DNA from: Caldilineales bacterium
GTDB lineage: Bacteria > Chloroflexota > Anaerolineae > J102
DNA length: 38,966 nt
Direction of reading: 5' to 3'
Assembly: GCA_013360575.1 (NCBI GenBank)
Contig: JABWBG010000004.1
Location: 1 to 38,966 of the forward strand
Shown here: piece by piece, positions 9,089 through 33,009 of the stretch
Layout of the letters: each line of letters starts with the position of its first letter
Position numbering within the stretch: the first letter of the stretch is position 1
Translations under genes and position numbers: made by a program
Notes under the pieces: model-generated
Databases searched by the model: none
Told to the model about the DNA's origin: nothing
The model's input: the letters and a program-made list of their open reading frames with translations, nothing else

Positions 9089-10153
9089 ATGCTTAGAAAT
9101 TTAGTTATCGACACAAAAATTATCAATGATAATGAAGATTGTTATGTCATTGCGGAAATAGGGCATAATCATCAGGGTGAGTTGGAAAAAGCCAAGCATC
9201 TTTTCCGACTGGCCCAGGAATGTGGCGTTGACGCGGTTAAGCTGCAGAAGCGTGATAATCGCACGTTGTATACCGCCGCCATGTATAACAAGCCCTATGA
9301 GCATCGCAATAGTTTCGGGCGCACCTATGGCGAACACCGCGAGTTTCTGGAATTCGGCTGCGCGGAGTATCGGGCGTTGCAGGCCTACGCCAGGGAGTTG
9401 GGCCTGGCTTTCTTCGCCACGGCGTTCGATATCCCCAGCGCCGATTTTTTGGCGGAATTGGAGATGCCGGCGATCAAGATCGCTTCCGGCGACTTGCGCA
9501 ATCTGCCTCTGCTGCGGCATGTGGCGCACTTGCAGCGGCCGATCTTGCTCAGCACCGGCGGGGGAGAGCTGGCCGATATCCAGCGCGCCTATGATCTGAT
9601 CATGCCGATCAATCCGCAGCTTTGTCTGCTGCAATGCACCGCCGCCTATCCGGCCTCGGCTGAGGAAATGAATCTGCGCGTGATCGCCACCCTGCGCGAG
9701 CGCTTTCCCGATGTGGTCGTGGGCTTATCCGACCATTACAACGGCATCTCCATGGCGCCGGTGGCCTATGTGCTGGGCGCCCGTGTCATCGAGAAGCATT
9801 TCACGGCCAATCACACCTGGCGCGGCTCCGATCATGCCATGTCGTTGGAGCCGATCGGGATGGCGAAGATGGTGCGCGATCTGCGGCGCACGCGCGCGGC
9901 TCTGGGCCACGGCGTCAAGGTCGTCTTCGAAAGTGAGCGGGAGGCGGTGAAGAAGATGGGCAAGTCGCTGTACGCGGCGCATGATCTGCCCGCGGGCCGC
10001 GTTCTCAGCGCCGCGGATATTGCCATCAAATCGCCCGGCGAGGGGCTGTCCCCCGATCTGCTGGATCAGGTTTTGGGCCGGAAGACGCTGCGCCCCCTGG
10101 CTGCCGACGCCAGCATCACTTGGGAGGTGTTGGATGGGGGTGCGCTTGACTGA
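9089..10153 (+). CDS. neuB: NeuB-family nonulosonate synthase with C-terminal SAF domain
   Basis: YVIAEIGHNHQGELEKAKHLFRLAQECGVDAVKLQKRDN; IKIASGDLRNLPLLRHVA; GLSDHYNG; SAF-like KKMGKSLYAAHDLPAGRVLSAADIAIKSPGEGLSP. Confidence 0.88.
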   Translation: MLRNLVIDTKIINDNEDCYVIAEIGHNHQGELEKAKHLFRLAQECGVDAVKLQKRDNRTLYTAAMYNKPYEHRNSFGRTYGEHREFLEFGCAEYRALQAYARELGLAFFATAFDIPSADFLAELEMPAIKIASGDLRNLPLLRHVAHLQRPILLSTGGGELADIQRAYDLIMPINPQLCLLQCTAAYPASAEEMNLRVIATLRERFPDVVVGLSDHYNGISMAPVAYVLGARVIEKHFTANHTWRGSDHAMSLEPIGMAKMVRDLRRTRAALGHGVKVVFESEREAVKKMGKSLYAAHDLPAGRVLSAADIAIKSPGEGLSPDLLDQVLGRKTLRPLAADASITWEVLDGGALD

Positions 10154-11006
10154 GCAACTTTCACCACGCGCCGCCCCCCTGTCGGCGCGGCCCAAGATCG
10201 TGATCCGCGCCAGCAACGGCTGGGGCAGGCTGCAACTGGGCGATCTGTGGCGTTTTCGCGAACTGCTCTGGTTCCTGACCCTGCGCGACATCAAAGCGCG
10301 GCATCGCCAGTCCGCTCTGGGGCCGCTGTGGTTCATCCTCAAGCCTCTGATCAATATGGTGATCTTCAGTTTCGTCTTTGGCAGGCTGGCCAATCTGCCT
10401 TCCGAGGGCGTGCCCTATCCGATCTTTACCTACACGGCCTTGATTCCCTGGACTTATTTTCAGAGCGCAGCCACCATGGCCGTGGGCAGCCTGGTGCAGC
10501 GTATGGATATCATCTCCAAGATCTATTTTCCGCGGCTGCTGATCCCGGCGTCGGCGGTGCTCTCCAATTTGGTCGATCTGGCGATGTCGTTGGCCGTGTT
10601 GGTGGGCATGATGTTGTTTTATGATGTGCCTTTCCGCCCGGCGCTGCTGACGTTGCCCCTGTTCGTACTCTTTGCGGCGGCGGTGGGGTTGGCGGTGGGG
10701 TTGTGGGGCGCGACGTTGGCCGTCAAATACCGCGATGTGGTGCTGGGCGTCACCTTCGCCTTGCAGGCGTGGATGTTCCTGACGCCGGTGGCATACAGCG
10801 CCACGCTCGTGGAAGGGCGCTGGCAGTGGCTGTACCAGGCCAACCCGATGTATTGGGTGATCGAAGGTTGGCGCTGGGCGGTTCTGGGCGCGGGCCAGCC
10901 GCCCACCCCGGCGATGCTGGCGCCGTTGGCCGTTGTCCTGTTGTTGCTCGTTGCCGGCGCCTATATCTTCCGCCGCAGCGAACGCTCGATCGTGGATTTG
11001 CTCTGA
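10134..11006 (+). CDS. wzm: ABC-2 type polysaccharide export permease (Wzm/TagG-like)
   Basis: ATG at 10134 within the listed ORF; LLWFLTLRDIKARHRQSALGPLWFILKPLINMVIFSFVFGRLA. Confidence 0.88.
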   Translation: MGVRLTEQLSPRAAPLSARPKIVIRASNGWGRLQLGDLWRFRELLWFLTLRDIKARHRQSALGPLWFILKPLINMVIFSFVFGRLANLPSEGVPYPIFTYTALIPWTYFQSAATMAVGSLVQRMDIISKIYFPRLLIPASAVLSNLVDLAMSLAVLVGMMLFYDVPFRPALLTLPLFVLFAAAVGLAVGLWGATLAVKYRDVVLGVTFALQAWMFLTPVAYSATLVEGRWQWLYQANPMYWVIEGWRWAVLGAGQPPTPAMLAPLAVVLLLLVAGAYIFRRSERSIVDLL

Positions 11007-11008
11007 CG

Positions 11009-12307
11009 ATGTCTCATATCGCCGTACAGGTGCGCGGGCTGGGCAAGCGCTATCGCATTGGGGTGCAGCGCCGGGCCACCTCACGCGGGTCGCGGCTGGC
11101 CAACACCCTGCTGGCGCCCTTCGATTACCTGCGCACTTCCCTCTCGCCCCCTTCCGAGGCGGAGACGCTGTGGGCTTTGCGCGATGTTTCCTTCGATGTT
11201 CAGGATGGAGAGGTATTGGGCATCGTGGGGCGCAACGGCGCCGGCAAATCGACCCTGCTCAAGATCCTCAGCCAGATCACCGAGCCGACCACCGGCGAGG
11301 CGGTGATCTACGGGCGGGTGGGCAGTCTGTTGGAGGTGGGCACCGGCTTTCATCAGGAGCTGACCGGACGCGAGAATGTGTACATGAACGGCGCCATCTT
11401 GGGCATGAGTAAGCGCGAGATCGACAGCAAGTTCGCTGAGATTGTAGACTTTGCCGGGGTCGAGCGATTCATCGACACGCAGGTGAAGCGCTATTCCAGC
11501 GGCATGAAGGTGCGCCTGGCCTTTGCCGTGGCCGCGCATCTGGAGCCGGAACTGCTGGTGGTGGATGAGGTGCTGGCGGTCGGCGACGCCGAGTTCCAGC
11601 GCAAATGCCTGGGCAAGATGGAGAATTTTGCCGATGGCGGGCGCACCGTGCTGTTCGTTTCGCACAACATGTCGGCGGTGACGCGGTTGTGCAGCCGGGC
11701 GATCTTTCTGGAGCAAGGTCTTAAGGTGATGGAAGGTACGCCCACCGAGGTGGTCGCCGCGTATCTAGATTCAGCTCGGTCGGTCGGCGCCGAACGCGTG
11801 TGGGATCTGGCCAGCGCGCCCGGCGCCGCTGAACTGAAGCTGCTCTCGGTGCGCCTGGTGGATGCTGCTGACCAGAATCTGGTGGTAGCCCGTGTGGATC
11901 AGCCCGCGGCCCTACAAATGACCTATCTGGTCGCCGAACCGGGCTTGACCTTTCGTTGCTCGGCCCGGTTTCACACCCAGGGCATCGTCGCTTTCGCCAC
12001 CCTGGAACCAAACGAGACCACACACCCCCGGCCGGGCGTTTATCAAGCCAGGGTGGGCCTCCCCGCCAACTTGCTCTCGGAAGGGGAGTACACCATCAGT
12101 CTTTCTTTCTTCACTTCGCAGGGCCGCAAGGCGCACTGGCTGACCGAGAGTGATGTGATTGCCTTTCAAACCTCTGATCCTCTCAACGGCGATAGCGCCC
12201 GCGGCGACTATGCCGAGAAGCTGGGCGGCGTGGTGAGACCAAAGTTAACCTGGGACAAGACTTATGTCGGCCCCACCCCGCCGGCCGGCGGGGTAAATGG
12301 GCGCTGA
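11009..12307 (+). CDS. wzt: ABC polysaccharide export ATPase with C-terminal Wzt-like domain
   Basis: ATG at 11009; Walker A GRNGAGKSTLLK, signature YSSGMKVRLAFAVA, Walker B LLVVDEVLAVGD, plus ~170 residue beta-rich C-terminal extension. Confidence 0.9.
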   Translation: MSHIAVQVRGLGKRYRIGVQRRATSRGSRLANTLLAPFDYLRTSLSPPSEAETLWALRDVSFDVQDGEVLGIVGRNGAGKSTLLKILSQITEPTTGEAVIYGRVGSLLEVGTGFHQELTGRENVYMNGAILGMSKREIDSKFAEIVDFAGVERFIDTQVKRYSSGMKVRLAFAVAAHLEPELLVVDEVLAVGDAEFQRKCLGKMENFADGGRTVLFVSHNMSAVTRLCSRAIFLEQGLKVMEGTPTEVVAAYLDSARSVGAERVWDLASAPGAAELKLLSVRLVDAADQNLVVARVDQPAALQMTYLVAEPGLTFRCSARFHTQGIVAFATLEPNETTHPRPGVYQARVGLPANLLSEGEYTISLSFFTSQGRKAHWLTESDVIAFQTSDPLNGDSARGDYAEKLGGVVRPKLTWDKTYVGPTPPAGGVNGR

Positions 12308-12333: not shown

Positions 12334-13299
12334 ATGCAATTCGTTGTCTCCACCCATTCCCGCCTGCTGCGGATCGATCTGGATGCCCACTGGCGCATCA
12401 CCGACATGGCCGTATTGGCCGATGGGCCACACTATGGCATCGCCCTGGCTCCGCAGCCCCTGCCTGGCATCATCGCCAAGAGTAATACGTGCGATCTTAC
12501 GGCCTATGATCTGAGCCAGGACGCCAACCGCGCCCAGATGCCTGTACCCCACACCAACAACGACCATATCCATCAGATCGCTTTTGCGCGTGATGGCCTT
12601 TACATCGCCAATACGTTTTATAACTCATTAACTTATCAGACACTCGATGGTTCGATTCGGCACGAATATGCTTTTAATGGCCATCGCACCGACATCAACC
12701 ATGTCAATTCTGTTTACCCGTGCGGCGATCTTGTGCTTGTGCTTTTGCACAATCGCAGCCAGCCCAGCCAGATCGCTGTGCTCGAACATGATCTGGCGCG
12801 CGGGTTTGCGGCCAGAGAGATGATCCGGTTGCCGCACAATGGCTGCCATAACGTGTTTGTCGATCAGCGCTATCTGTATTATTGCGCGTCTGGGGTGGGG
12901 CATTTTGTGGTCGTCGATCTGCGCAAGAAGCAGATCAAACTCGATCTGCCTTTTGCCGGGCATACGAAGGGCCTATCGGTAACCGAAGATCACATTGTTT
13001 TTGGCTTGTCGGAGCATGCCAAACGTGAAGCCCGGTTGACCTCACGCGGCCAGTTGGTGGTGGTCGATCGCTGCCGTCTGGCCATTTGCAGCATGATCGA
13101 TTTGAACGAGCAGGGCGCTGTCGGCAATGTCAATGAAATCCGCTGTCTTTCGGAACCGGAACTGGCCCACACCGGCCACTACGAACACGCCCGCGCCCTG
13201 GGTTCTTTTGTGGTTCGCCCGCCGCATTCCCTGGCGGCCAGCCTGGCGCGGCTGACGGCCCGCATCCAGCGCCGGTTGACCGCCAGGGCAAGAGGGTGA
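12334..13299 (+). CDS. Protein of unknown function, beta-propeller-like repeats (paralog of 20611-21654)
   Basis: Shares with second copy: HYGIAL, IHQIA, NSVYP/NSVFP, PSQIA, GCHN(V/L)FVD, GHTKGLS, GNVNEIRCLS. Confidence 0.75.
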   Translation: MQFVVSTHSRLLRIDLDAHWRITDMAVLADGPHYGIALAPQPLPGIIAKSNTCDLTAYDLSQDANRAQMPVPHTNNDHIHQIAFARDGLYIANTFYNSLTYQTLDGSIRHEYAFNGHRTDINHVNSVYPCGDLVLVLLHNRSQPSQIAVLEHDLARGFAAREMIRLPHNGCHNVFVDQRYLYYCASGVGHFVVVDLRKKQIKLDLPFAGHTKGLSVTEDHIVFGLSEHAKREARLTSRGQLVVVDRCRLAICSMIDLNEQGAVGNVNEIRCLSEPELAHTGHYEHARALGSFVVRPPHSLAASLARLTARIQRRLTARARG

Positions 13300-13315
13300 T
13301 TCTTTAAACATTGTT

Positions 13316-14167
13316 ATGAATCGTTATCCGCCGCTGTACGTTGTGATACATATTTATAAAACAGCCGGCAAGGCACTTTTGCGAAATTTCAAACGCAATT
13401 TTGCAAAAGATCAATTAATATCAATGTATGCTCCGCAAATCGGCCTTGATAAAGCGGAAAACAGTGCAAATCCAGGCTGGAATGAAAATATTGTCGTTGA
13501 TTACTTGAATAGACATTATACCGAAAAAACACGCTGTATATTTGGGCATATGGCCTTTTTTGGCATCCATGAATTGCATCCATTCAGTCAGCGAGAAGTT
13601 CGTTATATTGTATTCTTGCGCGAGCCTTTGGCCAGAATAGTATCACTCTATAATTTTTTGCGATTCAATTCCAAGAATGTGTGGCATCATGAGATCGTCG
13701 AGAATGACTGGGCCATGACAGAATGGTTCGAAAACAGCCGCGGTCTCTGGCTGCATGATGGCCAGATCCGGCAATTGTTGCTCTGGCAGCGCAAGGATGT
13801 GCTGACGCGCAGGCAGTTGCACGCCGAGGATCTGGCAGCGGCGCAGCAGGCATTGGCGCAGATGTGGTTCATCGGCTGTCAGGAACAGTTTCACGCCGAC
13901 GCCGGCCAACTCTATCGGCTGCTGGGATTCAAGAAGATCGTCGCCAATGAGGCGGTGAATGTCACGCAGGGCCATATCCGGCCTGACGCGGAGACCGCCG
14001 GCGTCATCGCCAGGGACAACGCCCTCGACGCCGAGCTTTATCGCTACGCGCTCTCTTTGCGCGCCCGGCGGTTGCAGGCGTCTGCAGGCGCTGAATCGGG
14101 CGAGGGCGCCCTTGCCTTGCGGCGCAGGGTGGCGCGCTGGTTGCCATTTCGCTCATCGACCACGTGA
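13316..14167 (+). CDS. PAPS-dependent sulfotransferase (Sulfotransfer_2-like)
   Basis: VVIHIYKTAGKALLRNF (5'-PSB loop) and IVFLREPLARIVSLYNF (3'-PB loop). Confidence 0.75.
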   Translation: MNRYPPLYVVIHIYKTAGKALLRNFKRNFAKDQLISMYAPQIGLDKAENSANPGWNENIVVDYLNRHYTEKTRCIFGHMAFFGIHELHPFSQREVRYIVFLREPLARIVSLYNFLRFNSKNVWHHEIVENDWAMTEWFENSRGLWLHDGQIRQLLLWQRKDVLTRRQLHAEDLAAAQQALAQMWFIGCQEQFHADAGQLYRLLGFKKIVANEAVNVTQGHIRPDAETAGVIARDNALDAELYRYALSLRARRLQASAGAESGEGALALRRRVARWLPFRSSTT

Positions 14168-14736
14168 GTATGACTCGGTTGGGCCTGATCTTGCGTAAGC
14201 GAAGCCGGTGGCTGCACAAGCGCATCACTGCTGCGCCGGTTCGGGCGCGGCAAAAGCTGGTGGATTATCTTGTGGGCCTGGGGTTTCTCAACATCCACCG
14301 CTGCGTGGTGCACGGGCCTCGCGAGCGGCTGCACCTGGGCCGGGGCGTGAACTGCCGCAACAATATCCTCTTCAACACCCGTTCGGGCCACATCTATATC
14401 GGCGAAAACACCGTGATTAGTTTTCATTGCATGTTGCTCACCGGCCGCCACGAATTCGAGCATGGCCGGCTCAAGCAACCGCGGGCGCGTCAGGTGCCCT
14501 CCTCCGGGTACGATATCCGTGTGGGATCGGGATGTTGGATCGCTTCCGGCGCCATCATCCTGGGCGGAGTGACGATCGGCGACCATTGCCTGGTGGCCGC
14601 CGGCGCCGTAGTCACCAAAGATGTGCCCGATGGCGCCATCGTCGCCGGGGTGCCCGCCAAGATCATTGGGGATGTCTCGCTGCTCACCGACGGTTCTGCA
14701 GCCGACTTGCTGATCGATGAAGAGGGCGATGACTGA
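14164..14736 (+). CDS. Left-handed beta-helix (hexapeptide) O-acetyltransferase
   Basis: GTG start overlapping upstream stop; VGSGCWIASGAIILGGVTIGDHCLVAAGAVVTKDVPDGAIVAGVPAKIIG. Confidence 0.88.
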   Translation: MSMTRLGLILRKRSRWLHKRITAAPVRARQKLVDYLVGLGFLNIHRCVVHGPRERLHLGRGVNCRNNILFNTRSGHIYIGENTVISFHCMLLTGRHEFEHGRLKQPRARQVPSSGYDIRVGSGCWIASGAIILGGVTIGDHCLVAAGAVVTKDVPDGAIVAGVPAKIIGDVSLLTDGSAADLLIDEEGDD

Positions 14737-15265
14737 TTCTCTCACAACGCGCGATGCGGCTCTTCTCCAGCGCATCCGGGCGATCCGTCTCCTGGCCTTC
14801 GATTTCGACGGCGTCTTCACCGACAACGCCGTTTATGTGTTCGAGGATGGCCGCGAGGCGGTGCGCTGTTCGCGGGCCGATGGCATCGGCCTGCGCAAGA
14901 TCGAGCGTCTGGGCATTCTTCTGTTGATCATTTCCAGCGAGCCTAATCCCGTGGTCGCTGCCCGCAGCCAGAAGTTACGCGTGCGCTGCATCCAGAATTG
15001 CGCGGACAAGCGCCAGGCGCTGGCCGAGGTCGCGGCGGCAGTGGGCGTGACGCTGGCCGAGGCCGCGTTCGTGGGCAACGATATCAACGATCTGCCGGTG
15101 TTGCAGGCCGTGGGGCTGCCCATCATCGTCCAGGACGCGCACCCCGACGTGGTCGCGGTTGGGCGCTATCGCACCCGGCGGCCCGGCGGCTATGGCGCGG
15201 TGCGCGAAGTCTGCGACCTGTTCGAGCAGGCCCTGACCAGGGCCGTGGAGGGATCTGATGGATGA
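14729..15265 (+). CDS. KdsC-like HAD phosphatase (sugar/nonulosonate 9- or 8-phosphate phosphatase)
   Basis: LLAFDFDGVFTDNAVYVFEDGREAVRCSRADGIGLRKIERLGILLLIISSE; GNDINDLPVL. Met at 14729 or 14717. Confidence 0.85.
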   Translation: MTDSLTTRDAALLQRIRAIRLLAFDFDGVFTDNAVYVFEDGREAVRCSRADGIGLRKIERLGILLLIISSEPNPVVAARSQKLRVRCIQNCADKRQALAEVAAAVGVTLAEAAFVGNDINDLPVLQAVGLPIIVQDAHPDVVAVGRYRTRRPGGYGAVREVCDLFEQALTRAVEGSDG

Positions 15266-16073
15266 TCTGTTCGATGTCTCCGGCCGCGTGGCTGTCGTCA
15301 CCGGCGGTATGGGCCAGTTGGGACGACAATTCACCCTGGCCCTGGCCCGGCGGGGCGCGCGTGTGGCCGTTTTCGATCTGCGCGTCGATCTCGACTATCA
15401 GCAGCAACGCTTCGGCGAGGCCCACGCCTGGGAGAATCTCCTCTTTTGCCCGGTGGATATTACTGATCGGGAGGCCGTGGCGGCGGGGCTGGCGCAAGTC
15501 GAAGCGAAATGGGGGCCGCCGCAGGTGTTGATCAACAATGCCGGGCTGGATTCGCCCCCCAACGCGCCCGCGGCCGAGAATGGCCCCTTCGAAGAGTACC
15601 CGGCGGCTTCACTGGCCAAGGTGCTCGACGTCAACATCAAGGGCGTGGTGTTCTGTTGTCAGGTCATTGGCAAGGCCATGGCCGCGCAGGGCCGGGGGTC
15701 GATCATCAATATCAGCTCCACCTATGGCCTGGTCTCGCCTGATCAGCGTCTCTATGCCTATCGCGCCGCCGGCGGCCAGCCCTTTTTCAAGCCCGTGGCC
15801 TATGCCATTTCCAAGTCGGGGCTGCTGAATTTGACCCGGTATCTGGCCACCTATTGGGCGGATCGGGGCGTGCGGGTCAACACCCTCACCTTTGGCGGCG
15901 TGTTCAATCAGCAGGATGCGGATTTTCTGGCCGGCTATTGCGCCCGCGTTCCCCTGGGCCGCATGGCCAACGAAGATGAATACAACGGCGCCATCCTCTT
16001 TTTGGCGTCGGACGCTTCATCTTATATGACCGGCGCCAATCTCGTCATCGATGGGGGATGGACGGCATGGTGA
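15258..16073 (+). CDS. Short-chain dehydrogenase/reductase, PtmA-like
   Basis: VAVVTGGMGQLGRQF Rossmann motif; YAISKSG (YxxxK); LVIDGGW terminus; located between NulO genes. Confidence 0.85.
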   Translation: MDDLFDVSGRVAVVTGGMGQLGRQFTLALARRGARVAVFDLRVDLDYQQQRFGEAHAWENLLFCPVDITDREAVAAGLAQVEAKWGPPQVLINNAGLDSPPNAPAAENGPFEEYPAASLAKVLDVNIKGVVFCCQVIGKAMAAQGRGSIINISSTYGLVSPDQRLYAYRAAGGQPFFKPVAYAISKSGLLNLTRYLATYWADRGVRVNTLTFGGVFNQQDADFLAGYCARVPLGRMANEDEYNGAILFLASDASSYMTGANLVIDGGWTAW

Positions 16074-16813
16074 CCGCGGCCACCGGCGTTGCCTTGATCC
16101 CGGCCCGTTCCGGCTCGGCCAGGGTCGCCGACAAAAACATCCGTTTGCTGGCCGGGCATCCGCTGCTGGCCTACAGCATCGCCGCCGCCCGCCAAAGCGG
16201 CGTGTTTGCGGATGTGATCGTGTCCACCGATTCGCAGCGCTACGCCGAGATTGCCCGGTCGTACGGCGCCGAAATCCCCTTTCTACGCCCCTTTCAGATG
16301 GCCGGCGCCACCTCTGCTGACATCGAGTGGGTGGCATACACCCTGACGCGGCTGCGGGATGAGGGCCGGGAATACGATTGTTTCAGCATCTTGCGCCCCA
16401 CCAGCCCTTTTCGCAAGCCGGAGACGATCCGCCGGGCCTGGGCGCAGTTTTTGCGGGCTGAGGGCGTCGATTCCTTGCGCGCGGTGGAAAAGTGCAGCCA
16501 GCATCCCGGCAAGATGTGGGTGGTGCGGGGCGAACGCATGACGCCGCTGCTGCCCCTTGGCCCCGAAGAGCAGCCCTGGCACAGCAGCCAATACCAGGCG
16601 CTGCCCCTGGTGTACGTCCAGAACGCCAGCCTGGAGATCGCCTGGACGCGTGTGCTTTTCGAGACGCACACCATCGCCGGGCATGTGCTGATGCCCTTCT
16701 TTACCGAAGGGGACGAAGGCCTGGACATCAATCGTGAAGAAGATTGGTGGTACGCCGAGTATCTGTTGGCGCGGGGAGAGGCAAGGCTCCCGGCGATGGA
16801 AATCAATGCCTGA
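16058..16813 (+). CDS. neuA: CMP-nonulosonate cytidylyltransferase (NeuA/PtmB/LegF-like)
   Basis: VALIPARSGSARVADKNIRLLAGHPLLAYSI; VIVSTDSQRYAEIARSYGA; LRPTSPFRKPETI; GLDINREEDW. Confidence 0.88.
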   Translation: MDGMVTAATGVALIPARSGSARVADKNIRLLAGHPLLAYSIAAARQSGVFADVIVSTDSQRYAEIARSYGAEIPFLRPFQMAGATSADIEWVAYTLTRLRDEGREYDCFSILRPTSPFRKPETIRRAWAQFLRAEGVDSLRAVEKCSQHPGKMWVVRGERMTPLLPLGPEEQPWHSSQYQALPLVYVQNASLEIAWTRVLFETHTIAGHVLMPFFTEGDEGLDINREEDWWYAEYLLARGEARLPAMEINA

Positions 16814-16860
16814 GTGCGCGCAACCTTATCCTGCCTGAAACGCTGCAGAGGTTTTCACCG

Positions 16861-18543
16861 GTGTCTGAATGCTCCCCCCTTCGTTTTCTGACACGTTTGC
16901 TGCTGGCGCTGCTGTTGCTGGCTGCCAGCTTGCGGGTCATGCCGCCCGCAGCAGCGGTGGCGGCGCCCGCAGCAGCGGTGGCGGCGCCCGCGGCCACCTG
17001 CCCGCTGAAGGTCATGCCCATTGGCGACTCGCTCACCTACGGCGTGGGCAGCCTGGCCGGGCCGGGCTACCGGCACACTTTGAACTTCCGCGCCAACGCC
17101 GTCAATTTGCAGATCGCCTGGGTAGGACGGCAGACATCCCCGGCGCCCAATCACGAAGGGAATCGCGGCTACTCCATCCTGGAACTCACGGCAGAATTGG
17201 ACGCCATGTTCAATGCCAACATGCCCGATGTTGTGATCCTCATGGCCGGCAGCGCCAGCATCAACGAGGGATACGCCTCGCTCAGCGCAGACCAATTGCT
17301 GGCGCAGTTAAACACGCTGCTGGACGCCATCTACACCCGCAATCCTGGTGTGTATGTCATTCTTGCCTCGATCCCACCGATCACCAGGGATCCACCCAAA
17401 AAAGGAGAACTCGCCAGGGATTACAGCGCATTGATCAGAACTGTGACGCGCAGTCGACTTTATTATGCGGAAGTATACAATATCATCAATACCACAACAG
17501 ATATGGCAGATGGCTTGCATTTGAATGATAGCGGCTACACCAAAGTAGGCGGCGCCATGTGGCCGTTTTTGCAGAACATTGCCCAGGGACTGTGTCCGGC
17601 CCCGGTGGCCACCTCTACGCCCACCCCCACGCCGACCGTTACGCCCACGCCGACACGCACGCCTACGCCCACCCATACCCCCACCCCGACACGCACGCCC
17701 ACGCCCACACACACACCCACACGCACGCCCACGCCCACACCCACCCATACTCCCACGCCAACCCATACCCCCACCCCGACACGCACGCCCACTGCCACAC
17801 TCACGCCGACTCTTACCCCCACCCCGGCGCTGGCCTGGCGTTTCTGGGGCTATGCCTACGAGGGCCTGCCCCGGGCCACGGCGCAGCCCCTGGCCGGCGT
17901 GCAGGTGCATCTGTATGGCCGCGCCGAGGGGGAAGCGCCGCCAGGCCTGTTGCTGCGCAGCGCCAGCAGCCAGCCTTCTGGCTATTGGAGCCTGCTGGCA
18001 GTGCAACCGTGGGTCTACCCGATCATGCGGGTGGAGGTGGAGAACGCGCCCGGCCTGGTTGTGACCGGCATTTGGTCGGAGAATGGTGAGATTGTGGCGT
18101 CCAACGCCGTGGAATGGCTGGCGCCCAGCCCGGTGGTGCATTGGAGCGAACTCTATCTCGATGATCCCACGCCCACGCCGACCCTGACGCCCAGCCCCAG
18201 CCCCACCCCCACGCCGACCCTGACGTCCACGCCCACATCCACGTCCACGCCCACATCCACGTCCACACCGACGGCAACGGCAACGGCCACGCCGACGCCG
18301 ACGCCCACGCCCACGGCGACCGTCACCTTCACGGCGACCGCCACGGACACGCCGACGCCCACGGCGACGGCTACTCCCACGGGCACGCCGACGCCTACGC
18401 CCGCGGCAACGGCCACGCCCACGGCCACCGCTGCTGCCACAGACACGCCGACGCCCACGCCGACGCCCACCGCCAAACCCACCCTCACCCCCACGCCGAC
18501 GCCGATTCCCCATCACTTGTGGCTGCCCCTGTTGCTGCTCTGA
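16861..18543 (+). CDS. Secreted SGNH/GDSL-type hydrolase with two Thr-Pro-rich linkers and a middle beta domain
   Basis: GTG 16861 start gives signal peptide; [11 protein letters not shown] block I and [10 protein letters not shown] block V; C-terminal [10 protein letters not shown]. Confidence 0.8.
16945..16986 (+). repeat. Two perfect 21-bp tandem copies (cccgcagcagcggtggcggcg), encoding PAAAVAA twice
   Basis: Direct reading of the sequence at 16945-16965 and 16966-16986. Confidence 0.9.
17609..17826 (+). repeat. Thr-Pro(-His/Arg)-encoding low-complexity repeat
   Basis: [15 protein letters not shown] repeats in frame. Confidence 0.9.
18167..18508 (+). repeat. Thr-Pro/Thr-Ala-encoding low-complexity repeat
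   Basis: [21 protein letters not shown] repeats in frame. Confidence 0.9.
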
Positions 18544-18588: not shown

Positions 18589-20586
18589 ATGCACCTCCAC
18601 CTCATCCCCCGCCCGGAATTCATCCGCATTCGGCGCCAGTTGTCCGATCCATATCAGCGCGCCCAAATCATCGCGGATATGTGCCGCGCCAATGCCCTGA
18701 CCGCGGTCAAACGCGCCGGCTCCGGCCACCTCGGCTCCAGTTTCAGCGCCCTAGACCTGGTCACCTGGCTGTATTACGAAGAGATGAACACGCTGCAAGT
18801 GGGCCACGCCGACCCCAACCGCGACATCTACTTCTCGTCCAAAGGCCACGATGTGCCCGGCCTCTACGCCCTGCTCTACTCGCTGGGTGTGCTGCCAGAG
18901 GAGAAACTGCTGAAACTGCGGCGCTTTGGCGGCCTGGATGGCCACCCCGACATCGCCGCCCCCGGCATCGAGGCCAACTCTGGCTCGCTGGGCATGGGCA
19001 TCTCCAAAGGGCGGGGCATGGCCTGGGCCAAACGACTGCGCGGGCACGGCGGCCGGGTTTTCGTCATGCTGGGGGATGGCGAGCTGCAAGAGGGCCAGAA
19101 CTACGAGGCGTTGCAATCCACCGTGCAGCAGGGCGTCAGCAACCTCACGCTCATTGTTGATCATAATAAAGTACAATCAGACAAACCTGTTCATGAGATC
19201 GTCGATCTGGGCGATTTGGCGCGAAAATTCTCCGTTTTCGGTTGGCATGTACAGCGTTGCGATGGGCACGATTTCCGCCAGATCGAAGCTGCTTTGGCCG
19301 AACTGGCCGCTGATGCAAAACGTCCCGGCATCCTGATTGCCGACACGATCAAAGGGCGAGGCGTTTCCTTCATGGAACATCCGCGGGCCTTGCAAGATGC
19401 CGGCGGCTACTATCGCTGGCACGCCGGCGCGCCTGCTGACGCTGACTTCCACACTGCCCACGCCGAGATCAGCGACCGTGTGAACGCGCGGTTGGCCGCC
19501 TGGGGACTGGACGCATTGGACTTGCAGCCCGTGGCGACGGAAGACGCGCCCGTGCCCTCCTCCCCGCGCAACGCCCTGGGCGAACCGGTCAGCAAGGGCG
19601 CGGACGCGGGCAAATCGCTGAAAGCCTCGGCGGAGTATGTGGTCGAGGCCTATGGCAAGGCTTTGATGGCGCTGGCGCCGCAGCGGCCCGATCTGGTCGT
19701 GCTCGACGCGGATTTGGCCGCGGATTGCCGCATTCGCGAGTTCGAATTGGCCTATCCTGACCGCTTCATCCAGAATGGCATCGCCGAACAGGACATGGTG
19801 AGCATGGCCGGCGGGCTGGCGCGCATGGGGCTGCTGCCCGTGGTCAACTCCTTTGCCAGTTTTCTGGCCGCGCGAGCGAACGAGCAGATCTACAACAACG
19901 CCAGCGAGCAGACCAAGATCATCTACGCCCTGCACTACGCCGGGCTGATCCCGGCCGGGCCGGGCAAATCGCATCAGAGCCTGCGCGATATCTCGCTGCT
20001 GGCGGCGCTGCCCAATATGATCTTGTTGCAGCCCTGCAATCCCGCCGAAACCAGGATGCTGGTGGACTATTGCGTGCAGGAAGCGACCGAGAATTGCGCC
20101 ATCCGCCTGGCGATTGGCCCCTCGCCGCGGGCGATTACTTTGCCGCCGGCCTACCGGCCCGCGCCTGGCCGGGGCTGCCCGCTCACCACGGGGGGCGATG
20201 CCCTCCTCTTTGCCTACGGCCCGATCATGGTGCACGAGGCGCTGCTGGCGGCGGAATTGTTGCAGGCGCGGGGCTTTGCCCTGCAAGTCGTCAACATGCC
20301 CTGGCTGAATCGGGTAGATCGGGCCTGGCTGGGGGAACTCGTCGCCGCTCACGACGCCCTATTCGTGCTCGAAGACCACGCCGACCGCGGCGGGCTGGCC
20401 GATACCCTGCTGACTGCCCTCATCGACGTGAAAGGGGGCGCGGCCTTCACCTTCAAACGCTTTGCCGTGACCGGCTATCCTGCCTGCGGCGCGCCCTGGG
20501 AGGCGCTGGGTTTCCATGCCCTGGACGGCGCTTCCCTGGCCGGACAGATCTTGCAGGCTGTGGATCAACCCGCGCCCGCGGCCTGA
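18589..20586 (+). CDS. Transketolase (full length, N- and C-terminal parts fused)
   Basis: RAGSGHLGSSFSALDLVTWLYY; FVMLGDGELQEGQNYEAL (TPP motif); NGIAEQDMVSMAGGLARMGLLPVVNSFASFLAARANEQIYN. Confidence 0.88.
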   Translation: MHLHLIPRPEFIRIRRQLSDPYQRAQIIADMCRANALTAVKRAGSGHLGSSFSALDLVTWLYYEEMNTLQVGHADPNRDIYFSSKGHDVPGLYALLYSLGVLPEEKLLKLRRFGGLDGHPDIAAPGIEANSGSLGMGISKGRGMAWAKRLRGHGGRVFVMLGDGELQEGQNYEALQSTVQQGVSNLTLIVDHNKVQSDKPVHEIVDLGDLARKFSVFGWHVQRCDGHDFRQIEAALAELAADAKRPGILIADTIKGRGVSFMEHPRALQDAGGYYRWHAGAPADADFHTAHAEISDRVNARLAAWGLDALDLQPVATEDAPVPSSPRNALGEPVSKGADAGKSLKASAEYVVEAYGKALMALAPQRPDLVVLDADLAADCRIREFELAYPDRFIQNGIAEQDMVSMAGGLARMGLLPVVNSFASFLAARANEQIYNNASEQTKIIYALHYAGLIPAGPGKSHQSLRDISLLAALPNMILLQPCNPAETRMLVDYCVQEATENCAIRLAIGPSPRAITLPPAYRPAPGRGCPLTTGGDALLFAYGPIMVHEALLAAELLQARGFALQVVNMPWLNRVDRAWLGELVAAHDALFVLEDHADRGGLADTLLTALIDVKGGAAFTFKRFAVTGYPACGAPWEALGFHALDGASLAGQILQAVDQPAPAA

Positions 20587-20610: not shown

Positions 20611-21654
20611 ATGAGCGAGAACCACCGATTCGTCGTTGCCACGCATTCTTTTCTGCTAGCGATCGAAACAGACGCGCAGTGGCGTTTGCAGAATCTGCAC
20701 GTGCTGGCGCGTGGGCATCACTATGGCATTGCCTTGCCCGCGGCCAACGGGGATCGTTTCATCGCCAAAGGCCGCGGGGAATTGCTGACCCTCTATCAAC
20801 CAGATGGGGCGCGTGGCGGGGGCTATCTGGCTGCCGGCGAGCGCCTGTTGGGCGAGGAATTTGGCGAGATCCACCAGATCGCGCAGCATGAGGGCCTGCT
20901 TTTCTTCGCCAACACCGGCCGCAACAGCCTGGTGTGGGCCGATGCAGATGGCGCCGTGCTGGGCCGCTACCATTTCGGCGGCAAAGAGGAAGACATCGAT
21001 CACATCAACTCCGTCTTCCCCCTCGGATCGGGGCGGGTGGCGTGTCTGTTGCATGGCCGCGGCCGCCGGCCTTCGCAGATTGCCATCCTGCAACTGCACG
21101 GGCGCACGCAGATCGAACTGCTGCATCGCGGCTTCCTGCGGCATATGGGCTGTCACAATCTCTTCGTCGACCGCCAACGCCTGGTCTACAACGCCTCGGA
21201 AGTGGGTAAGGTCGTGACGGTGGATGTCCGCAGCGGGCGGATCGAGCGAGAATTACGCTTCCCCGGCCACACCAAAGGCCTGTCCATGCTCGATCGGGCC
21301 TTCATCGTCGGCTATTCGGATCGGGTGGAGCGGGCGCTGCGCACGCACAGCCGGGGGCATCTGGCCGTCATCGACCGCCGCACCCTGGAGACGAAAGCGC
21401 GGATCGTTCTCAACCACCCGGCGCTGCCTCAGCCTGCCGGCAATGTCAACGAGATCCGCTGTCTCAGCCACGCCGAGTATGGCCAGCACACGACCGACGC
21501 CGAGGCGCTGACCGCAGCCTTGCGCCGGCTCACCAGTTACTCGGCGGCGGGCCGGCTGCAGCTGCTGACCAGGGCGCAGGCAACGCGATCGGTCGCCATC
21601 GCCAAGTCTTTCTGGCGAAAGCGGGTGTGGGGCAAGGATGGGAGAGAGTCATGA
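20611..21654 (+). CDS. Protein of unknown function, beta-propeller-like repeats (paralog of 12334-13299)
   Basis: Motifs HHYGIALP, EIHQIAQ, DHINSVFP, RPSQIAILQ, GCHNLFVD, GHTKGLSM, GNVNEIRCLS. Confidence 0.75.
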   Translation: MSENHRFVVATHSFLLAIETDAQWRLQNLHVLARGHHYGIALPAANGDRFIAKGRGELLTLYQPDGARGGGYLAAGERLLGEEFGEIHQIAQHEGLLFFANTGRNSLVWADADGAVLGRYHFGGKEEDIDHINSVFPLGSGRVACLLHGRGRRPSQIAILQLHGRTQIELLHRGFLRHMGCHNLFVDRQRLVYNASEVGKVVTVDVRSGRIERELRFPGHTKGLSMLDRAFIVGYSDRVERALRTHSRGHLAVIDRRTLETKARIVLNHPALPQPAGNVNEIRCLSHAEYGQHTTDAEALTAALRRLTSYSAAGRLQLLTRAQATRSVAIAKSFWRKRVWGKDGRES

Positions 21655-22523
21655 CTGGAAGAACGCCGCAGCAGGACGCGCGGCCCGCGCTGATTTTCCT
21701 ACACATCCCCAAGGCCGCCGGCACCACCCTTTATACGATTTTGCGACGGGAGTATAGCCGGCAGCACACCCGCATGATCGACGGCGGCCGCGTGGCCGCG
21801 GCGGTGGCGGAATTCAAGGCCCTGCCCCTGGCAGAACGGGCGCAGGTGCGGTTGCTGATGGGACACATGCCCTTTGGCCTGCACGCTTTTTTGCCCCATC
21901 CTGCCCGCTACATCACACTGCTGCGCGACCCGGTGGAGCGGATCCTCTCGCATTATCACTTCATTCTGCGCACGCCGCATCACTATCTGCACCAGGCTGT
22001 GGCAGGCGCTGGCATGTCTTTGCACGATTATGTCACCTCTGGCCTGACCACCGAGGTGGACAATGGCCAGACAAGACTCCTGGCCGGGGTGGACGCGGCA
22101 TCCGATGCGCCCCTGCCCGACATGTTGCAGCAGGCGGAAATGAATCTGAACGCCCATTTCGCCCTGGCCGGCCTCTCCGAGCAGTTCGATGAATCGTTGT
22201 GTTTGATGCGCCGCCGTTTGGGCTGGAAGCATTGGCCCCTTTATTTCAAGCGCAACGTCACCAAGGATCGACCGGCCGGCGAGCAGGTGACAGAGGCGAC
22301 GCTCAGCGTCATTCGCCAGCGCAATGTCTATGATAGTGCGCTTTATGCCCGCGTTCAGCGAAATTTTCAGCAGATACTCGCTGAAAATGCGGAAATTATG
22401 GAAAATGACATGAGGCGATTTTCGCTTATGAACCGGCTTTATTATTATCAGACGTTGCCTTTGCAGGCGGCGATCCGGGCAAAGAAGCAGTTGGGATGGC
22501 GCTCCTCCCGCGCCGCGCGCTAA
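21651..22523 (+). CDS. PAPS-dependent sulfotransferase (Sulfotransfer_2-like)
   Basis: ATGA overlap with 20611 gene; LIFLHIPKAAGTTLYTIL; ITLLRDPVERILSHYHFI. Confidence 0.87.
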   Translation: MTGRTPQQDARPALIFLHIPKAAGTTLYTILRREYSRQHTRMIDGGRVAAAVAEFKALPLAERAQVRLLMGHMPFGLHAFLPHPARYITLLRDPVERILSHYHFILRTPHHYLHQAVAGAGMSLHDYVTSGLTTEVDNGQTRLLAGVDAASDAPLPDMLQQAEMNLNAHFALAGLSEQFDESLCLMRRRLGWKHWPLYFKRNVTKDRPAGEQVTEATLSVIRQRNVYDSALYARVQRNFQQILAENAEIMENDMRRFSLMNRLYYYQTLPLQAAIRAKKQLGWRSSRAAR

Positions 22524-22530
22524 GGTTTCG

Positions 22531-23307
22531 ATGTCGCATCCTCTGATCATCTTCATGCACATCCCCAAGACGGCGGGGAGAACTTTGCGGGCGATCATTC
22601 GCCGCCAATACCGTCCGGAAGAGGTCTGCACCACCAACCGGCAGGATCCGGATCCCTATCAGGCTTTCACTCGCCTGACCGCGGCGGAACAAGCCCGATT
22701 GCGGGTGGTACAGGGGCATTTCGCCTACGGCCTGCACGAGCATACGGATCGGCCTGTGCTGTATGTGACCATGCTGCGCCAGCCGGCAGCGCGGGCCATT
22801 TCCTACTATCGTTTCATTCGCGACAATCCCCATCACACCCATCATGCCGCGGCCAATGCTTTGGGATTGGCCGGCTTTGTGCGCGAACGCGTGTCGAAGG
22901 GGATCGATAATGGCCAACTGCGCTATCTGGCCGCGGCGGAGGACGCGCCTTTTGGCGAATGCACGGAGGAGATGCTGGCGTTGGCCTTGCAGCGGCTGGA
23001 GGAGCGGTTCATCGCCGTGGGCCTGGTGGAAGCGTTCGATGACTCGATTTTGCTGATGCGGCAGGCGCTGGGTTGGCGGTTGCCGGTCTACAAGCCTGTG
23101 AACGTGAGCAAACATCAGGTGCGCCGCGAAGAACTTTCTGAGGAGGTGCTGGAGGCCTTGGCCGCCTACAACCAGTTGGATCAGCGATTGTACGATTACG
23201 CGTGCCGGCGTCTGGCCGCGGCCAAACAAGCCGCAGGCTGGCGGTTCGCCTGGGATCGCCGGCGATTGGCATGGATGAATCAGGTGTTGGCATGGCGCAC
23301 ATCCTAA
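22531..23307 (+). CDS. PAPS-dependent sulfotransferase (Sulfotransfer_2-like)
   Basis: IIFMHIPKTAGRTLRAIIRRQY; VTMLRQPAARAISYYRFI. Confidence 0.83.
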   Translation: MSHPLIIFMHIPKTAGRTLRAIIRRQYRPEEVCTTNRQDPDPYQAFTRLTAAEQARLRVVQGHFAYGLHEHTDRPVLYVTMLRQPAARAISYYRFIRDNPHHTHHAAANALGLAGFVRERVSKGIDNGQLRYLAAAEDAPFGECTEEMLALALQRLEERFIAVGLVEAFDDSILLMRQALGWRLPVYKPVNVSKHQVRREELSEEVLEALAAYNQLDQRLYDYACRRLAAAKQAAGWRFAWDRRRLAWMNQVLAWRTS

Positions 23308-29342: not shown

Positions 29343-31052
29343 ATGCTCCAAAATCTGAAACGATCGGCAGCGCAACTTCTGCATCACTGGCGCCGGCAAC
29401 CGCAAAAACCCCTTCTTCCCGCCACCGATTGGCGTCAACTTCTCGCCGCCGATTGGGATGCCTGGGAAGCCGCGCGGGCCGCCGCGATGGGGGGCCCCAA
29501 AGTCCTGCTGGCCACCAGCCTGGGCGGCCACGATGGCGTCACGCCCGTGGAAAGCCTGCTGGCCGTGGCCCTGACCCTGCGCGGGGCCGAGGTGCACCTG
29601 CTCTTGTGCGACGCCTTCCTGCCCGCCTGCATGTTGGCCACCCTGCGCAAGCCCGAACACCATGCCCGCTTCGTGACAGAGGGGCCGCAGTCCCATCTGT
29701 GCGCCCGCTGCTGGGGCCAAGGCCGGGCGATCTTCGAACCGCTGGGGCTTCCCCTCCATCGTTACAGCGATCTGGTCAGCGCCGCCGCACAGGATGAGGC
29801 CAGGGGGATAGCCGAATCTATCGCCATCGCCGATATCCCCGCCTTCCGGCTCGATCATCTGGCCGTGGGCGAGCATGCCCTGGCCGGGGCATTGCGCTAT
29901 TTCGCCCGCGGCGATCTGCGCACAGAACCGGAGGGCGAAGCTATCCTGCGGCGCTATCTCCAGGCCGCTCTCCTCGCCACACGGGCCGCGCAGCGTCTGT
30001 TCGATCAACACGATTTCACCGCCGCTTGCTTTCACCACGGCATTTATGTCCCCCAGGGCCTGATCGGTGAGACGGCGAGGCAGCAGGGCGTGCGCGTGAT
30101 CAACTGGAACACGGCCTATCGCAAGCACTGTTTCATCTTCAGCCACGGCGATACCTACCATCATACCCTGATGACCGAGCCGACCTCGGTTTGGCAAGAT
30201 CTGCCGTGGACGCCGGAAATGGAGCGGCAGACGATGGACTACCTGGTCAGCCGTTGGTATGGCACGAACGACTGGGTGTGGTTCCACGAGCATCCGCAGG
30301 AAGATCTGGGCGAAATCGTAGCCGAGTTGGGGGTGGACCTGAGCAAACCGGTCATCGGCCTGCTCACCAACGTCATGTGGGATGCGCAACTGCACTACCC
30401 GGCCAACGCCTTTCCCAACATGTTGGATTGGGTGCTGCGCACCATCGCCTTTTTCGCCGATCGGCCCGACCTGCAACTCGTCATCCGCATTCACCCCGCC
30501 GAAATCCGCGGCACCGTGCCCTCGCGCCAGAAGATCGCCGACGAGATCGCCCGCGCTTTCCCCGACCTGCCCGCCAACGTCTTCGTCATCCCCCCCGAAA
30601 GCCAGATCAGCACCTATGCCGTCATGCTCAAATGCGACACCGTGATCATCTACGGCACCAAAACCGGCGTGGAACTGACCAGCTTTGGCATCCCCGTCAT
30701 CGTCGCCGGCGAGGCCTGGATCCGCAACAAAGGCGTGACGATGGACGCGCCCAACGCCGAAACCTATTTCCAGATGCTCGATCGCCTGCCCCTGCAAAGC
30801 CGCCTGGATGAGGCGACGACGCAACGCGCCCGCAAATACGCCTATCATTTCTTCTTCCGGCGCATGATCCCGGTGTCGGCGATGGAGCCTCTTGCTGGCT
30901 GGCCGCCGCTGCGTGTGAATCTGACTTCCCTTGCTGCCTTGCAACCTGGCGCTGATCCCGGCCTGGATCGGATCTGCGATGGCATCCTCACAGGCGCTGC
31001 CTTTGTCTATCCCGCCGAGCAGATCGCGCAGGCCGGGCCGGAGGGCCTGTGA
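29343..31052 (+). CDS. Capsule polysaccharide biosynthesis-like glycosyltransferase (KpsS/PF05159-like or GT-B)
   Basis: GT-B-like architecture; PDLQLVIRIHPAEIRG; LKCDTVIIYGTKTGVELTSFGIPVIVAGEAWIRNKG. Confidence 0.7.
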   Translation: MLQNLKRSAAQLLHHWRRQPQKPLLPATDWRQLLAADWDAWEAARAAAMGGPKVLLATSLGGHDGVTPVESLLAVALTLRGAEVHLLLCDAFLPACMLATLRKPEHHARFVTEGPQSHLCARCWGQGRAIFEPLGLPLHRYSDLVSAAAQDEARGIAESIAIADIPAFRLDHLAVGEHALAGALRYFARGDLRTEPEGEAILRRYLQAALLATRAAQRLFDQHDFTAACFHHGIYVPQGLIGETARQQGVRVINWNTAYRKHCFIFSHGDTYHHTLMTEPTSVWQDLPWTPEMERQTMDYLVSRWYGTNDWVWFHEHPQEDLGEIVAELGVDLSKPVIGLLTNVMWDAQLHYPANAFPNMLDWVLRTIAFFADRPDLQLVIRIHPAEIRGTVPSRQKIADEIARAFPDLPANVFVIPPESQISTYAVMLKCDTVIIYGTKTGVELTSFGIPVIVAGEAWIRNKGVTMDAPNAETYFQMLDRLPLQSRLDEATTQRARKYAYHFFFRRMIPVSAMEPLAGWPPLRVNLTSLAALQPGADPGLDRICDGILTGAAFVYPAEQIAQAGPEGL

Positions 31053-32191
31053 TGCGCCTGGTCGTCGATGGCGAGATCTTCACCCGCCAGACCAAGGGCG
31101 GCATCTCCCGCATCTTTATCGAGACATTGCCGCGGCTGTGCGACGCCGATCCCGGCCTGACCGCGGTCATCCTCACCGATGGCGCGCTGCGGCAGCCCTT
31201 GCCCAGGCATGCGCAGATCCTGCACCGGGCGATCCCACGCTACGAATGGTGGCTCAGGCCCGGCCGCCTGTTTCGCCCGGCCGCGATGGCGCTCAAACAG
31301 CGGGCGCGGGTGCGCCTGGCCGGCCCTGCCGCCGGGGCTGTGTGGCAGGCTTCCTATTACAGCACGCCCCCGGCGGCCTGGCAGGGCCTTTTTGCCGTGA
31401 TCTTTCATGATTTGATGGAAGAGCGCTATGCCGAGATGTTCGTTCAGCCGCGCCATGAACTGGTGCGCCGCCGCAAACGCGCCTGCGCCTTGCAGGCCGA
31501 CATCGTGATCTGCAATTCGCCCACCACGCAGCAGGATGTCTGCGCGTTCTACGGCCTGCCCCTGGCCAAGACACGGTTGATCACCCTGGCCCCCGGCTCT
31601 CACTTTCGCGTGTTGGCAAAAGAGGAGAGGATCCCAACCCTGGCGCCCCCCCGCCCCTATCTGTTGTATGTGGGCGAACGCTCGGCTTACAAGAATTTTG
31701 CCCTGCTGCTGACAGCCTACGCCGCCTGGCCGGGCCGGGCGGACCTCGATCTGGCTGTGGTGGGACGACCTTGGGATGCCGCAGAGTGGGCGCGCGTGCA
31801 GGCGCTGGGCCTGGCCGACCAGGTGCGCCACTATGCCTTTGCCGATGACGCCGCCCTCTGCCAGCTTTACAACGCCGCGGCCGCCTTCGTCTATCCCTCC
31901 CTTTTCGAGGGGTTCGGCCTCCCCCCGCTGGAGGCGATGGCCTGCGGTTGTCCCGTCGTCGCTTCGGATATCCCCACCACCCGCGGTGTGGCGGGCGATC
32001 ATCCCTTCTATTTCGCCGCGCAGGACGCCGCCGACTTGCGGCGAGCCTTGGACGCCGCGCTCGCCCAGGGCCGCGAGCAACTGCGGCAGGACGCGGCGCA
32101 GCAACACGCCGCCTCCTATTCCTGGCAGACCACGGCGCGTCAACTCAGCGCCATCTATCACGAGCTTGTGGGAGAGCCTTCGACGGCATGA
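31049..32191 (+). CDS. GT4-family glycosyltransferase
   Basis: YLLYVGERSAYKNFALLLTAY; AAAFVYPSLFEGFGLPPLEAMACGCPVVASD. Confidence 0.9.
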   Translation: MMRLVVDGEIFTRQTKGGISRIFIETLPRLCDADPGLTAVILTDGALRQPLPRHAQILHRAIPRYEWWLRPGRLFRPAAMALKQRARVRLAGPAAGAVWQASYYSTPPAAWQGLFAVIFHDLMEERYAEMFVQPRHELVRRRKRACALQADIVICNSPTTQQDVCAFYGLPLAKTRLITLAPGSHFRVLAKEERIPTLAPPRPYLLYVGERSAYKNFALLLTAYAAWPGRADLDLAVVGRPWDAAEWARVQALGLADQVRHYAFADDAALCQLYNAAAAFVYPSLFEGFGLPPLEAMACGCPVVASDIPTTRGVAGDHPFYFAAQDAADLRRALDAALAQGREQLRQDAAQQHAASYSWQTTARQLSAIYHELVGEPSTA

Positions 32192-33009
32192 ATACCTCGT
32201 CCGAACGCCCCGCCATCATCTTCCTGCACATCCCCAAATCGGGCGGCACCACGATGCACACCATCATCGAACGCCAGTACCCGCCCGACCGCATCTTCAC
32301 CATCGACGGCCAGCGCGTGCCGCAGTCGATCGCCGAATTCAAGGCCTTGCCCGCAGCCACGCGGGCGCGCTTGCAGGTGCTGAAGGGACACATGGCTTTT
32401 GGCTTGCACGCCTGGCTGCCGCAACCGGCCACCTATTTCACCCTGCTGCGACACCCGGTCGAACGGGCGATTTCCCATTACTATCACATCCTGCGCAGCC
32501 CGCATCACACCCATCACGCCGCGGTGGCAGGCGGGAAGATGGATTTGCAGGCCTTCGTCGAGGCCGGCGTCTCCCGCATTGTGGACAATGGCCAGGTGCG
32601 GGCGCTGGCCGCGGCGGAGGAAACGCCTTACGGGCAATGCACCGCCGCCATGCTGGCCCAGGCCGAAGCCAACATCGCTGCCGCTTTCGACCTCGTGGGC
32701 CTGACCGAACGGTTCGATGAGACCCTGGTGCTGCTCAAACAGCGCTACGGCTGGCGGATTGGCGCGTATCGTCGCCAGAACATCGGCGCCAACCGCCCCC
32801 CCTCCGCCGACGTGCCGCCCGCGGCCTGGCGTCTGCTGGAGGAGTTGAATCAGTTCGACATACAACTGTACGAACAGGCTGCGGCCCGTCTCGATCAAGC
32901 TGTGGCGCGGGGCGGCGCCCGTTTTGCCGTGGACGTGCGGCGCCTGCAATGGCGCAACGCCCTGCGCAGCCGCTACCGGCAGCTTGCCCTGCGCCTGCGC
33001 AGCATCTGA
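32188..33009 (+). CDS. PAPS-dependent sulfotransferase (Sulfotransfer_2-like)
   Basis: ATGA overlap; IIFLHIPKSGGTTMHTIIERQY; FTLLRHPVERAISHYYHILRSPHHTHH, close paralog of the 21651 gene. Confidence 0.87.
   Translation: MNTSSERPAIIFLHIPKSGGTTMHTIIERQYPPDRIFTIDGQRVPQSIAEFKALPAATRARLQVLKGHMAFGLHAWLPQPATYFTLLRHPVERAISHYYHILRSPHHTHHAAVAGGKMDLQAFVEAGVSRIVDNGQVRALAAAEETPYGQCTAAMLAQAEANIAAAFDLVGLTERFDETLVLLKQRYGWRIGAYRRQNIGANRPPSADVPPAAWRLLEELNQFDIQLYEQAAARLDQAVARGGARFAVDVRRLQWRNALRSRYRQLALRLRSI

Follow-up and report, generated by a model that had tools for sequence, protein, structure and literature searches.

Divergent DUF4915/TIGR03032-related predicted beta-propellers encoded alongside sulfotransferases in surface polysaccharide gene clusters

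In a Caldilineales bacterium (Chloroflexota; genome of 3.9 Mb), a protein of about 320 residues is encoded directly upstream of a sulfotransferase (ST), and a related pair follows some 8 kb downstream. This raises the question of what the protein is, whether its pairing with STs extends beyond this locus, and what it might contribute to the action of its partner. We analyzed the whole 38,966-nucleotide stretch of DNA that carries both pairs, hereafter the window. The features required for the argument are as follows:

9089..10153, + strand, NeuB-type synthase with NeuB and SAF domains (domain matches)
10101..11006 (start approximate), + strand, Wzm-type ABC-2 transporter permease (ABC2_membrane match)
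11009..12307, + strand, Wzt-type ABC ATPase with a C-terminal extension (P-loop and signature motifs read from the translation)
12334..13299, + strand, propeller copy 1: 321 aa with an ATG start, predicted cytoplasmic six-bladed beta-propeller of a divergent DUF4915/TIGR03032 clade
13316..14167, + strand, sulfotransferase 1 (ST1): 283 aa, Sulfotransfer_2, partner of copy 1
14164..14736, + strand, hexapeptide O-acetyltransferase-like protein (profile matches)
14717..15265, + strand, KdsC-like HAD phosphatase (profile matches)
15258..16073, + strand, short-chain dehydrogenase, SDR (profile matches)
16058..16813, + strand, CMP-sugar cytidylyltransferase, PseF-like (profile matches)
18589..20586, + strand, transketolase-like protein, directly upstream of copy 2
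20611..21654, + strand, propeller copy 2: 347 aa, 42% identity to copy 1
21651..22523, + strand, sulfotransferase 2 (ST2): Gal-3-O-sulfotransferase / Sulfotransfer_2
22531..23307, + strand, sulfotransferase 3 (ST3): Gal-3-O-sulfotransferase / Sulfotransfer_2
about 32188..33009 (start approximate), + strand, sulfotransferase 4 (ST4): Sulfotransfer_2, 40.3 bits

A preliminary description of this DNA had proposed a protein of about 320 aa with five characteristic motifs, located 16 bp upstream of a PAPS-type ST at 13316-14167, and a recurrence of the arrangement at 20611-22523. The open reading frames bear out each of these points. All five motifs are present in the translation of copy 1, which is separated from ST1 by 16 bp, while the TGA of copy 2 overlaps the ATG of ST2 (ATGA). 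ST1 scores 26.1 bits against Sulfotransfer_2, above the Pfam cut-off of 22, and carries a 5'-PSB-like motif (HIYKTAGK, with Y replacing P) and a 3'-PB motif (REPLARIVSLY). ST2 and ST3 reach 49.6 and 37.7 bits against Gal-3-O-sulfotransferase (Pfam cut-off 27), and both PAPS motifs are intact in all four STs of the window, which holds four of the five Sulfotransfer_2 genes of the genome. The two propeller proteins share 42% identity (E 2e-63), whereas ST1 and ST2 are only 26% identical; a recent tandem duplication of the cassette was therefore rejected. Orthologues of ST1 in two relatives (60% and 53% identical) each adjoin an orthologue of the propeller. The partner STs are thus ordinary members of the PAPS-dependent carbohydrate sulfotransferases (Sulfotransfer_2, Gal-3-O-sulfotransferase), and we know of no described enzyme of this kind that needs a propeller partner.

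The surrounding genes read as an ABC-transporter-dependent surface polysaccharide locus. Its Wzm/Wzt pair was recognized by the ABC2_membrane match of the permease and by the adjacent ATPase; this ATPase gene lies directly upstream of copy 1, and its orthologues (49-59% identical) adjoin Wzm orthologues at two related loci (L038 and L064). In addition to the genes listed above, the cluster encodes a Wzy_C-type protein, glycosyltransferases and a DegT aminotransferase. Each of the five genomes with a member of the propeller clade encodes an APS kinase, which makes a supply of PAPS plausible.

The preliminary description had also suggested a comparison with DUF4915 and TIGR03032, and the kinship proved genuine, although distant. 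Against DUF4915 (PF16261), copy 1 and copy 2 score 30.6 and 20.6 bits, below the gathering score of 35, and against TIGR03032 (NCBIfam) 30.7 and 18.2 bits, far below the cut-off of 251.5; hence the propeller clade is a relative of TIGR03032 and not a member. Six of the eight clade members match DUF4915 at E <= 1e-3 (best 7.9e-9), and a profile-profile alignment (hhalign) of the clade with eleven DUF4915 domains of the same phylum extends over 191 columns with a probability of 98.3 and an E-value of 2.2e-14. The homology spans the fold and preserves the order of motifs: IHxxA, HxNS/G, CHN/PHS, G(H/F/W)TK/RG, GxS and a final E-I. Despite an identity of 16-23%, residues G35, H80, N125, H172, K/R212, G213 and S226 are conserved or nearly so throughout the superfamily. 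In the phylogenetic tree the clade stands apart with a support of 100/100, and its long branch measures 2.26 changes per site. Copies 1 and 2 consequently represent a divergent clade of the DUF4915/TIGR03032 superfamily. The clade lacks the fusions to TPR, GNAT and glycosyltransferase domains known from DUF4915/TIGR03032, and its neighbours are polysaccharide genes, in contrast to the adhesins that accompany canonical family members. A literature search, poor in subscription papers, returned no publication on DUF4915 or TIGR03032 and no description of a propeller-ST cassette. The finding is modestly novel. Its STs are ordinary, and the propeller is distantly related to an established, uncharacterised family.

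The guess of a beta-propeller-like fold agrees with structure prediction. The AlphaFold2 model of copy 1, built on an alignment of the eight clade members, comprises six four-stranded blades (pLDDT 86.2, pTM 0.85); strand 266-271 pairs with the strands at the N terminus and so closes the ring. A model of a TIGR03032 domain is likewise a six-bladed propeller (pLDDT 76.2, pTM 0.80). In copy 1, the innermost strand of each blade opens with a conserved motif: HYGIAL (33-38), IHQI (79-82), DINHxNSV (120-127), GCHNxFVD (170-177), GHTKGLS (209-215) and GNVNEIR (264-270). When faces were assigned by topology, from the DSSP strand order of the model, a single face held 28 of the 35 polar positions that are invariant, among them every one of the seven invariant His (p 8e-4). 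All six blades contribute to this face, which also presents N125, K212, R231, R234 and E268. The fold is shared with generic six-bladed propellers (YWTD domains of LRP6/LRP4, nidogen, Kelch/Keap1, SMP-30), which are only about 8-13% identical to the clade and from which no function can be transferred. Foldseek against the PDB retrieved generic propellers only (E 3e-8, TM about 0.6), viral libraries likewise gave generic propellers, and PDB sequence and profile searches gave no useful match, yielding chance hits or generic LRP/YWTD propellers only. Copy 1 ends in a basic helix, and the C-terminal tails of clade members are basic in general (+4 to +9). An amphipathic C-terminal helix acting as a membrane tether was considered and is not claimed, because the hydrophobic moment of the tails is in most members no higher than that of shuffled sequences.

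The clade is rare: as sampled, it consists of eight copies in five genomes, four of which belong to one Caldilineales family. Outside the window, a Caldilineales metagenome-assembled genome holds two copies, one of them cut short where its contig ends; two more genomes of that family hold three between them, and Salinibacillus kushneri holds one. No clade member turned up in the remaining Bacillota that were sampled, and no close relative occurred on viral contigs, phages or plasmids or in PHROGs. Two weak matches within the phylum (L005 and L006) were dropped as unrelated reading frames after inspection. By far the best viral structural match was an uncharacterised phage protein (BFVD A0A6J5L568; E 9e-13, 17% identity). 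It may be a viral DUF4915-like propeller; tblastn traced no record for it.

An ST gene lies within 10 kb of all eight clade propeller genes. Five of them adjoin it directly (both window copies and those at L038, L064 and L067); at L066 and in Salinibacillus a single gene separates the propeller from the ST downstream, and at L065 the nearest one is 8.4 kb away. The Salinibacillus homologue, from another phylum, is part of an exopolysaccharide cluster. The L066 cluster (contig C21 of genome G483) contains many STs of several Pfam families and by appearance specifies a strongly sulfated polysaccharide. As direct adjacency is not improbable in such ST-rich clusters, it was not taken as proof, and proximity relative to glycosyltransferase family 4 (GT4) genes was used instead. 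Of 172 GT4 genes listed for these five genomes, 16 (9%) are located within 10 kb of an ST. Fisher's test gives 3e-8 for propellers against GT4 genes, 2e-6 when only six clusters are counted, and 9e-5 in the worst case of six clusters with all unlisted GT4 genes counted as near, figures that serve as a guide because the 10-kb limit was set after the loci were seen, the genomes are few, and the GT4 control includes genes outside polysaccharide loci and is not matched for cluster type. The recurrent pairing put forward in the preliminary description thus holds for every close homologue, and the propeller-ST gene cassette is well supported as real and recurrent.

Outside the clade the link to STs is partly kept. 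Three DUF4915 lineages further removed from the clade also have STs near their propeller genes. In L043-L046 and L051, which represent five genomes of Chloroflexota, a Sulfotransfer_3-type gene directly follows the DUF4915 gene, and the order, where readable, is transketolase halves, GT2, DUF4915, ST and epimerase. These loci resemble the window in their adjacent ST, transketolase-like and glycosyltransferase genes and in their polysaccharide-type cluster, but differ in the propeller subclade, the ST family and the split of transketolase into two genes. In another lineage (L049), an operon encodes, in this order, an ST, a DUF4915 protein, CysD and CysN/C with an APS kinase domain. In Diaphorobacter, a gene for an Asp/Asn-hydroxylase-Sulfotransfer_3 fusion and the TIGR03032 gene share an overlap of 4 bp. 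Such a protein, which combines Asp/Asn beta-hydroxylase and Sulfotransfer_3 domains and adjoins TIGR03032, is encoded at L075:4061-5953; a natural guess would be that one and the same side chain is first hydroxylated and then sulfated. On the other hand, most of the canonical TIGR03032 genes sampled adjoin no ST, so the wider family contradicts in part the expected association of homologues with STs, which the clade and the three distant lineages bear out. At L071, L074, L076, L079, L080 and L040, a TIGR03032 propeller domain shares its protein with a GNAT acetyltransferase, TPR-GT9-like or TPR-GT41 domain. In 11 of the 12 plasmid-borne loci examined (L069-L072, L074-L077 and L079-L081, with L078 as the exception), a giant surface protein is encoded next to TIGR03032 or close by. 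These giant proteins include autotransporters and choice-of-anchor Q, cadherin-like, VCBS, FG-GAP, IPTL-CTERM and Ig-like types, which suggests a role of canonical TIGR03032 in modifying adhesins. Taken together, the ST-linked lineages, the fusions to other transferases and the adhesins indicate that the superfamily accompanies group-transfer enzymes and not STs only.

We propose, with a probability of roughly 0.42, that the propeller acts in the cytoplasm to recognise or prepare the acceptor for the ST, in the making of a sulfated surface polysaccharide. The cluster's own Wzm/Wzt ABC transporter would export this polysaccharide after its intracellular assembly. The propeller is probably cytoplasmic, since no signal peptide is seen and its partners are cytoplasmic. 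Its conserved face (seven His together with Asn, Lys, Arg and Glu) would bind the growing glycan and present or prepare it for the PAPS-dependent ST encoded alongside, before export. The analysis shows the gene pairs, the predicted fold with its single conserved face, the kinship with the superfamily and the recurrent partnership; acceptor binding, physical contact with the ST and sulfation of the polysaccharide are inferred. For TPR-GT41/GT9 and GNAT enzymes, the corresponding acceptor-side function would fall to other members of the superfamily. Several observations count against the proposal. The STs beside the propellers come from different Pfam families, and ST1 and ST2 are only 26% identical, so that no tight one-to-one co-evolution of propeller and ST is apparent. 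At L065 the nearest ST is as far as 8.4 kb away, most canonical TIGR03032 genes sampled lack an adjoining ST, and core residues persist where the partner is another enzyme.

The nearest rival holds that the propeller is itself an enzyme, whose conserved face is catalytic and possibly metal-binding, with the glycan, or else a sugar or amino-acid side chain, as its substrate either ahead of group transfer or following it. We regard this as a serious, if tentative, possibility. In its favor are the concentration of the seven invariant His, N125, K212, R231, R234 and E268 on one face and the persistence of the seven superfamily-wide positions at such low identity. The core residues H80, N125, H172, K/R212 and S226 are conserved even beside partners other than STs, a pattern that accords with a shared small ligand or with catalysis no less than with docking of an acceptor; the retention of a few His/Asn/Arg positions across partners of different chemistry suits the catalytic reading well. 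Among known propeller enzymes, oligogalacturonate lyase, carotenoid oxygenases and SMP-30/paraoxonases have His- or Asn-centred sites. However, the clade matches no known enzyme family in Pfam, NCBIfam or PDB sequences, and its structural matches are generic. More broadly, DUF4915/TIGR03032 propellers might be a general acceptor-side module of bacterial group-transfer enzymes, located in the cytoplasm, with a conserved His/Asn/Arg site required for, or chemically active in, the sulfation, glycosylation or acylation of surface polysaccharides and giant adhesins, and with the window clade as its glycan-sulfation branch. This broader generalization we consider doubtful.

It seems unlikely that the propeller is a passive neighbour with another polysaccharide role, such as chain-length control, a nucleotide-sugar step or export, so that the shared clusters would merely reflect complex surface glycans. 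All close loci are indeed polysaccharide clusters rich in glycosyltransferases, the ST families vary between loci, and adjacency as such is not improbable where STs abound, as at L066. Yet only 9% of the GT4 genes, a control not matched for cluster type, have an ST nearby, compared with eight of eight propellers, and the association returns in three other DUF4915 lineages, including the operon with PAPS synthesis genes. A pairing due to chance, or an arrangement purely inherited and devoid of functional meaning, is very improbable. In its favor, few lineages are independent, since four of the genomes come from a single Chloroflexota family and one from the Bacillota, whereas the ST association kept by the Bacillota member, the comparison with GT4 genes and the ST-linked lineages outside the clade all speak against it.

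The return of the pairing in relatives and in a member of the Bacillota makes DUF4915/TIGR03032 testable as a partner of group-transfer enzymes, to which the present evidence ties this uncharacterised family. The defined residues to mutate and the simple two-gene cassettes make the partner role directly accessible to experiment. If the acceptor-side role is correct, sulfation of bacterial glycans and adhesins would have an overlooked propeller partner, and this would be relevant for the production of sulfated (heparin-like) polysaccharides.

Several further genes of the cluster deserve mention. In mid-cluster, positions 16744-18543 of the window encode a protein that by eye is GDSL/SGNH-like, with long TPTPTP-rich repeats and a relative at L064. 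The product of 29343-31052 gives a borderline match (20.3 bits) to Capsule_synth, the beta-Kdo transferase family, and has a 79% identical orthologue at L066; it could be linked to the NeuB- and KdsC-like genes. Finally, transketolase-like genes adjoin DUF4915-type propellers in two distant lineages, that of the window and that of L043-L046 and L051, and possibly serve the synthesis of an unusual sugar together with the NeuB-, KdsC- and PseF-like genes (window 9089-10153 and 14717-16813).
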